Source of the DNA: Catenulisporales bacterium
Lineage (GTDB): Bacteria > Actinomycetota > Actinomycetes > Streptomycetales > Catenulisporaceae
Direction: 5' to 3'
DNA length: 64,000 nt
NCBI GenBank assembly: GCA_019510485.1
Contig: JAEKKI010000188.1
Location: forward strand, 1-64,000
The notes beneath the pieces were generated by a model, which was not told the DNA's origin, did not search any database, and saw only the letters and a program-made list of their open reading frames with translations. Below, piece after piece: positions 62,926-64,000 of this stretch; position 1 is the stretch's first letter, and every line of letters begins with the position of its first letter. The translations under genes were made by a program, and so were the position numbers.

Positions 62926-63846
62926 TCATCGGCTCTGCGCGTCGGCTTGGACCCCCTCCCGGTAGGACGGGTGCCGCGGCTTCCAGCTCAGTTCGTCCTT
63001 CGCCTTGGCGTTGCTGATGATGTAGCGGCCGGTGACGAACGCGTTCAGATAGGGGAGCGGCTTGATCATCCAGGCCGGGACGGTGCGCGGCGTCTTGGTG
63101 TGGAAGGCCTTGGCGATCTCCAGCGCCACGTTCGCGAACGACGTCGGGGTGTCGTCCACGATGTTGTAGGCCTGTCCGGCCCGGCCGTGTTCCAGGGCGG
63201 CCACCGTGGCGCTCGCCGCGTCGGCCAGGTGGATGAAGCTGTTGGTCCCGGCCTTGACCAGGGGCAGCTTGCCGGCCTGGAGGTACTCCACGTAGGCGTC
63301 GGTGGCTGGACCGCCGTAGAACAGGCCGTAGCGCAGCGCGATCCCGTCGATCCCCGGCTGGGAGAAGGCGATCTTCTCGTTGCGCAGCATCGCCGCGCCG
63401 TGTTCGGCGAACGACTTGCGCGGGGACGGTCCGAAGTACGCGGCCTCGGTGATCGGCCCGGGGCCGAGATCACCGAATCCGTAGCCGAAGATCATCGACT
63501 GGGTCAGGAACCGGGTCGCGCCGACCGCTTTGGCCACTTCCATCAGGTTCTCGGTGCCGACGGTGCGCAGGAGGTTCGTGCCGCGCATGTCCTTGTTGCG
63601 CATAGGCGCCTTCTTCAGCGCTGTCAGCTGGCTGATCACCGCGTCGAAGTGCCGGCCCGCGACGGCGGCGAGCAGCTGCTGCCGGTTCATGACGTCGGCG
63701 ACGATCGCGGCGGCGCCCATGGCCTCGATCGTGCGGACGCCGTCCTGCGTCCGGGTGATGCCGACGACCTCGTGACCGGCGTCGATCAGGGCCGGGGTGA
63801 GGACGCGGCCGAAGACGCCGCTGGCACCGGCGAGGAGGATACGCAT
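62926..63846 (-). CDS. NAD-dependent epimerase/dehydratase family (extended SDR) protein
   Basis: The 306-residue protein has an N-terminal nucleotide motif GASGVFG and the extended-SDR layout, including a conserved NIVDD segment. The usual active-site Y-x3-K is not clear, so it may be an atypical member acting as an oxidoreductase or sensor. The ATG has AAGGAGC upstream. An ECF41-type promoter lies ~60 nt upstream, and a putative ECF41 sigma gene begins the next reading frame to the right. ECF41 genes are known to sit with epimerases of this type. Confidence 0.85.
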   Translation of the reverse strand: MRILLAGASGVFGRVLTPALIDAGHEVVGITRTQDGVRTIEAMGAAAIVADVMNRQQLLAAVAGRHFDAVISQLTALKKAPMRNKDMRGTNLLRTVGTENLMEVAKAVGATRFLTQSMIFGYGFGDLGPGPITEAAYFGPSPRKSFAEHGAAMLRNEKIAFSQPGIDGIALRYGLFYGGPATDAYVEYLQAGKLPLVKAGTNSFIHLADAASATVAALEHGRAGQAYNIVDDTPTSFANVALEIAKAFHTKTPRTVPAWMIKPLPYLNAFVTGRYIISNAKAKDELSWKPRHPSYREGVQADAQSR

Positions 63847-63902
63847 GATGTGCTCCTTATGGTCTGCTTCGCTGGGGTATCTCCGCGCGTTCTGACCACA
63901 AG

Positions 63903-63929
63903 GACGGGGTCGTACCGGGTTCTGTGACT
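63903..63929 (-). promoter_or_regulatory. ECF41-type promoter of the epimerase gene
   Basis: On the minus strand AGTCACA (63923-63929) is followed by 16 nt and CGTC (63903-63906). This is one base from the ECF41 consensus I remember, TGTCACA-n16-CGTC. It lies 57 nt before the epimerase ATG. The match in both boxes and in spacing makes it a good candidate. Confidence 0.7.
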
Positions 63930-63948
63930 CCTTTCTGTGTGACCTACG

Positions 63949-64000
63949 TCACATCTCCAGGGCCCGCACGCCGGCCAGCTTCGCCGGGTTGGCCATGCCG
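63949..64000 (-). CDS. C-terminal end of a putative ECF41 (SigJ-like) sigma factor gene
   Basis: Only the last 16 codons and the TGA are visible, reading GMANPAKLAGVRALEM. The NPxKLA-type ending is typical of the SnoaL-like C-terminal extension of ECF41/SigJ sigma factors. The identification is weak by itself. It is supported by the neighbouring epimerase and its ECF41-type promoter. The rest lies beyond the window. Confidence 0.5.
   Translation of the reverse strand, partial: GMANPAKLAGVRALEM

Follow-up and report, generated by a model that had tools for sequence, protein, structure and literature searches.

Sigma factors of the ECF41 group are widespread and work without an anti-sigma factor, and we know of no signal that induces them. 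Their signature promoter is TGTCACA-n16-CGTC, their partners and targets are carboxymuconolactone decarboxylases, oxidoreductases and epimerases, and the group is marked by a WLPEP motif in the linker that joins region 2 to region 4 (Wecke et al. 2012, PMC3426412).

We analysed a window of 64,000 nucleotides from a Catenulisporales bacterium (contig C324:1-64000), which ends inside a gene of this kind. Its gene order and sequence make the locus an ECF41 module with the arrangement >ECF41> >epimerase>. Such a module with its promoter is ordinary, known since 2012. What stands out most here is a Crp-type palindrome, absent from the initial annotation, and what deserves further attention is the fixed presence of such a box at ECF41 promoters of actinobacteria. 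The features of the locus are these:

62926..63846, minus strand: gene for an epimerase / NAD(P)-binding SDR-type protein of 306 aa (PF01370), the ECF41 target (COE) gene
63853..63858, minus strand: ribosome-binding site AAGGAG of the epimerase gene, read from the sequence and kept in 10/10 Catenulispora loci
63903..63906, minus strand: -10 element CGTC of the ECF41 promoter, identical in 9/9 congeners
63922-63907, minus strand: 16-nt spacer of the ECF41 promoter, read from the sequence
63923..63929, minus strand: -35 element AGTCACA, which is TGTCACA in 9/9 congeners
63938..63953, no strand assigned: Crp/GlxR-type palindrome TGTGACGTAGGTCACA, a perfect TGTGAN6TCACA, 8 nt upstream of the -35 element and overlapping the sigma stop codon
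63949..64000, minus strand: 3' end of an ECF41/SigJ-type sigma gene, which runs past the window to a GTG at contig position 64805

The 306-residue protein matches the Pfam Epimerase family PF01370 at 8.4e-20, and an orthologue with 78-83% identity occupies the same place downstream of the sigma gene in all nine Catenulispora congeners. Ten Catenulispora genomes keep the whole set of sigma gene, epimerase, promoter and Crp-type box. Outside this phylum, five loci of Ktedonobacteria (Chloroflexota; L061, L066, L068, L091, L106) carry an ECF41 gene together with a distant relative of the epimerase (27-30% identity) on the opposite strand. The pairing of ECF41 and epimerase, as far as these gene neighbourhoods indicate, is one that recurs beyond actinobacteria.

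The gene cut by the edge of the window ends in ...GMANPAKLAGVRALEM* with the stop at 63949, and continues on the rest of the contig, which reaches 69,948 nt. The initial annotation had read this ending as that of a SigJ/ECF41 protein, and the continued gene bears it out: the profile models TIGR02957 SigX4 and NF007214 SigJ match at 2.7e-80 and 2.1e-76, and the solved SigJ structure 5xe7 matches at 3.4e-37, with residues 5-256 of the surviving part alignable. Sigma region 4 is present (PF08281, 3.3e-14), as is the WLPEP linker, in the form GPWLPEPVLT. Past region 4 lies a SnoaL-like C-terminal extension of about 140 residues, longer than the ~100 aa taken as the minimum for the group, that aligns to the end of 5xe7; in an intact congener the Pfam SnoaL_2 model scored 0.09, under its cut-off. 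The same congener, the one intact protein scanned, was over the SigX4 cut-off and matched the sigma region 2 model PF04542 at 3.5e-16. Among named genomes, sigma proteins at 81-90% identity belong to Catenulispora species and metagenome-assembled genomes.

As for the start of the sigma gene, no ECF41 promoter was seen ahead of the gene itself. Seven nt before its GTG (region C324:64805-64825, L007:4805-4825) stands TAATAGGCT in nine of ten Catenulispora genomes and TAATACGCT in the tenth, which suggests a leaderless transcript made by the housekeeping sigma factor. The sigma gene is thus probably leaderless, with a predicted housekeeping -10 element.

As assembled, the sigma gene is broken: it opens at the GTG (contig position 64805) with VDQDLPTWDDTRAAEVFNQHR, then lacks 85 nt that the nine congeners have, and drops out of frame. 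Downstream, the reading frame picks up at GSDYAKVEDPKAFL and is open through to the stop at 63949. With this deletion and frameshift, region 2 is missing from the gene as assembled (Sigma70_r2 gives no match), whereas translation shows the gene intact in 9/9 congeners. A gene in this state would give no working sigma factor, provided that the assembly is correct. A rescuing start codon was considered and rejected: the downstream frame offers none before residue 43 of the surviving part, and that one leaves a piece of 219 aa without region 2.

The initial annotation had placed an ECF41 sigma gene beside the epimerase, expecting sigma regions 2 and 4 and a SnoaL-like domain to the right of 64000, and taking a gene without sigma regions there as evidence against it. 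Family, promoter and context stand, and the unit is kept in ten Catenulispora genomes; region 4 (PF08281) and the SnoaL-like extension of about 140 residues are there as well. Region 2 is gone and the gene is out of frame, so this part of the claim fails for the sequence as assembled.

The deletion itself may be only an artefact of assembly or binning, with an intact sigma gene in the living organism. The assembly is a 5.53-Mb draft of 326 contigs, 77% complete, and the ends of contigs C251 (L010:3480-4027) and C260 (L011:3761-4308) overlap by 548 nt at 98% identity, which may reflect strain variation or a repeat splitting the assembly. No further break was found in the sigma gene besides the 85-nt deletion. 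dN/dS comes to 0.054/0.377 when this sigma gene is set against its nearest relative, and to 0.040/0.291 for two intact relatives; relaxed selection was thus not seen in the remainder of the broken gene. Since this remainder evolves like an intact gene, there is no sign of decay over a long time, and the loss is either recent or an assembly error. On the other side, the neighbouring genes on the contig are intact, the missing segment was not found elsewhere in the assembly (only paralogues at <=48% identity), and the -35 element of the epimerase promoter is also changed, in this genome alone. Given the near-duplicate contig ends, we weigh a recent inactivation and a faulty draft equally. If the loss is real, the broken sigma gene and the off-consensus -35 would form a small example of a module early in decay.

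In terms of the box, TGTGACGTAGGTCACA is the only perfect TGTGAN6TCACA in the 64-kb window and one of eight in the whole genome. It fits exactly both the GlxR consensus TGTGANNTANNTCACA (PMC4254451) and the Crp motif GTG(N)6GNCAC of S. coelicolor (PMC10033298). In the ten orthologous Catenulispora promoters, 8-10 of 10 arm positions are kept at exactly offset -24, where the mean arm match is 9.1/10, compared with 0-5.1 at 44 other offsets.

The same position recurs at other actinobacterial ECF41 promoters. When loci were retrieved by the sigma protein alone, 29 of the 31 GTG(N)6GNCAC boxes found between -60 and -12 relative to a putative ECF41 -35 fell at -23 to -25, a count that includes three Catenulispora orthologues and in which some boxes are counted once per divergent promoter. 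A de novo comparison of 25 non-redundant sigma-gene promoters, other than the Catenulispora focal locus, revealed two conserved blocks, TGTGAC in columns -25 to -20 and CAC in columns around -13 to -11; the genera include Streptomyces, Nocardia, Actinomadura, Nonomuraea, Actinoallomurus and Micromonospora. Finally, in 297 genomes of the class, scanned separately and allowing a gap of 0-30, 15 of 20 boxes stood at a gap of 9 or 10 (binomial 1.6e-14 assuming independent matches, although related genomes are not independent).

At six loci (L051, L055, L060, L070, L074, L087; around positions 2670-2790 of the fetched loci) one box stands midway between two divergent ECF41 promoters, with a 24-25 bp offset to both. 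No Crp-type box was present at the ECF41 promoters examined from Mycobacterium (one promoter, L092), Herbidospora and Williamsia, so the box is common and not universal.

A second layout of ECF41 promoters, without the box (L092:2822-2834, L063:2833-2834, L081/L082/L088:2751-2764), has divergent -35 elements nearly back to back, e.g. TGTGACATGTCACA in Herbidospora. One of these contigs, titled Kitasatospora arboriphila NRRL B-24581 (L081), is ~94-96% identical over kilobases to Williamsia muralis (L082, L088); it is a mislabelled or contaminated record, or the result of a recent transfer.

The genome encodes a Crp/GlxR orthologue of 224 aa (contig C217, L114:1060-1734), matching 3h3u at 6.4e-81 and 4byy at 2.4e-75, which we take to be the solved Crp of M. 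tuberculosis and the GlxR of C. glutamicum, respectively. We infer that Crp would bind the box and co-control many actinobacterial ECF41 promoters. The predicted start site lies 6-9 nt past CGTC, which puts the box centre near -50. Classical Crp activation occurs from class I and class II positions, and -50 falls between them. With the box at neither, activation is not assured and the sign of the effect is unpredictable.

The box could instead be bound by another dimeric regulator, of the Crp/Fnr family or unrelated to it. The genome holds several more matches to the Crp-type HTH domain model, and the Crp/Fnr family shares half-sites of this shape. We nevertheless regard such a binder as unlikely, given the exact fit to the consensus of GlxR, whose orthologue is encoded here, and the fact that no regulator gene consistently adjoins the focal locus.

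Somewhat harder to sustain is the idea that the box consists of extra ECF41 -35 copies, inverted and direct GTCACA units that serve sigma region 4 or are a relic of a divergent promoter. Its arms do hold GTCAC, the core of TGTCACA, and the surroundings of the box often include divergent ECF41 promoters. Against this, in the 25 promoters the left arm almost never retains the base that corresponds to the first T of the -35, itself nearly invariant (A in 1/25), while the right arm mostly reads CCAC, a match to the Crp consensus and not to a -35; these two features disfavour the reading. The box also stands ahead of the epimerase, where there is no divergent gene. A Crp/GlxR-family operator is the reading we prefer.

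Next, we turn to the promoter to which the box is fixed. AGTCACA-n16-CGTC (63903-63929, minus strand) lies 56 nt ahead of the epimerase ATG. The initial annotation had seen it as one base off the ECF41 consensus with the exact 16-nt spacing, and had named carboxymuconolactone decarboxylase, oxidoreductase or epimerase genes as ECF41 partners; the first agrees with the TGTCACA-n16-CGTC printed in PMC3426412, and the second is right as well, the same partners being named there. In the window there is one match to this consensus with <=1 mismatch, and 1.05 are expected by chance per simulated 64 kb, so the motif match by itself proves nothing and evidence from outside is needed. This comes from the congeners, all nine of which have a perfect TGTCACA-n16-CGTCCTTG in the gap between sigma gene and epimerase; perfect and locked in position beside an ECF41 gene, these mark a real ECF41 target promoter. 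The window, with its one expected match, leaves room for a chance resemblance and transcription of the epimerase from elsewhere, which the perfect, position-locked copies next to the ECF41 gene in nine congeners rule out for practical purposes.

The A at the first -35 base is found in this genome alone, against T in nine congeners, and with this departure from consensus the epimerase promoter may be weak. Two other ECF41 promoters examined (L065, L078) have CGTCACA as their -35, so the first base tolerates some change. AGTCACA may still be functional, possibly through an intact ECF41 paralogue on contig C52.

The ECF41 promoter of this paralogue (region L008:2353-2404) is perfect, and 9 nt upstream of it stands a perfect Crp-type palindrome, another of the eight in the genome. 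Directly ahead of this promoter are a YCII/DGPF-type gene and a sigma gene resembling ECF42. Perfect TGTCACA-n16-CGTC sites number four in the genome, and only the C52 site was found ahead of an ECF41 gene. A wider ECF41 regulon in this genome was considered and set aside: no sigma gene was seen adjoining the sites on C77 and C251, and C260 has a contig end nearly identical to that of C251.

Putting these observations together, we propose the following model. In the relatives, an ECF41 sigma factor, restrained by its own SnoaL-like C-terminal extension and expressed from a leaderless housekeeping-type promoter, would turn on the epimerase from TGTCACA-n16-CGTC. A Crp/GlxR-family dimer, on the box centred ~50 bp upstream of the predicted start, would modulate the same epimerase promoter and so connect a sigma switch made of one protein with cAMP or carbon status. 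Many actinobacteria would have ECF41 promoters arranged in this way, often in divergent pairs with a single box in the middle. In the present genome, the sigma gene appears broken by the 85-nt deletion in region 2, whether the inactivation is real and very recent or the assembly is at fault. We consider this whole explanation, a Crp-modulated ECF41 module shared in many actinobacteria whose sigma gene is broken here as assembled, reasonably probable. The bolder proposition, that many actinobacterial ECF41 promoters are composite, with a Crp-type dimer site at a constant 24-25 bp ahead of the -35, often shared by two divergent promoters, and cAMP/Crp as an obligatory co-regulator, is one that we advance tentatively and that may well prove too strong.

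If true, the Crp box would be a second input for the ECF41 sigma group. A position-locked box would link ECF41 promoters to cAMP and carbon status in a concrete manner that is cheap to test, and it might help account for the scant ECF41 phenotype in standard laboratory conditions. A full-text literature search, with the S. coelicolor Crp ChIP study outside its reach, returned no reports joining ECF41 with Crp; a fixed Crp-type box as companion of actinobacterial ECF41 promoters is apparently undescribed.

In comparison with known systems, the locus resembles the ECF41 modules of Wecke et al. 2012 (PMC3426412) in the sigma gene adjoining an epimerase, the TGTCACA-n16-CGTC promoter, the WLPEP linker, the long C-terminal extension and the lack of an anti-sigma gene. 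It differs from them in the deletion of region 2 in this assembly, in a -35 that is one base off, and in a Crp-type box at a fixed distance, which is not in the consensus printed in PMC3426412. The surviving part of the sigma protein can be aligned to M. tuberculosis SigJ (5xe7), which is intact, whereas region 2 is missing here. Lastly, the box matches the operators of C. glutamicum GlxR (PMC4254451) and S. coelicolor Crp (PMC10033298), with a Crp orthologue encoded in the genome, and unlike those operators it is locked to an ECF41 promoter.
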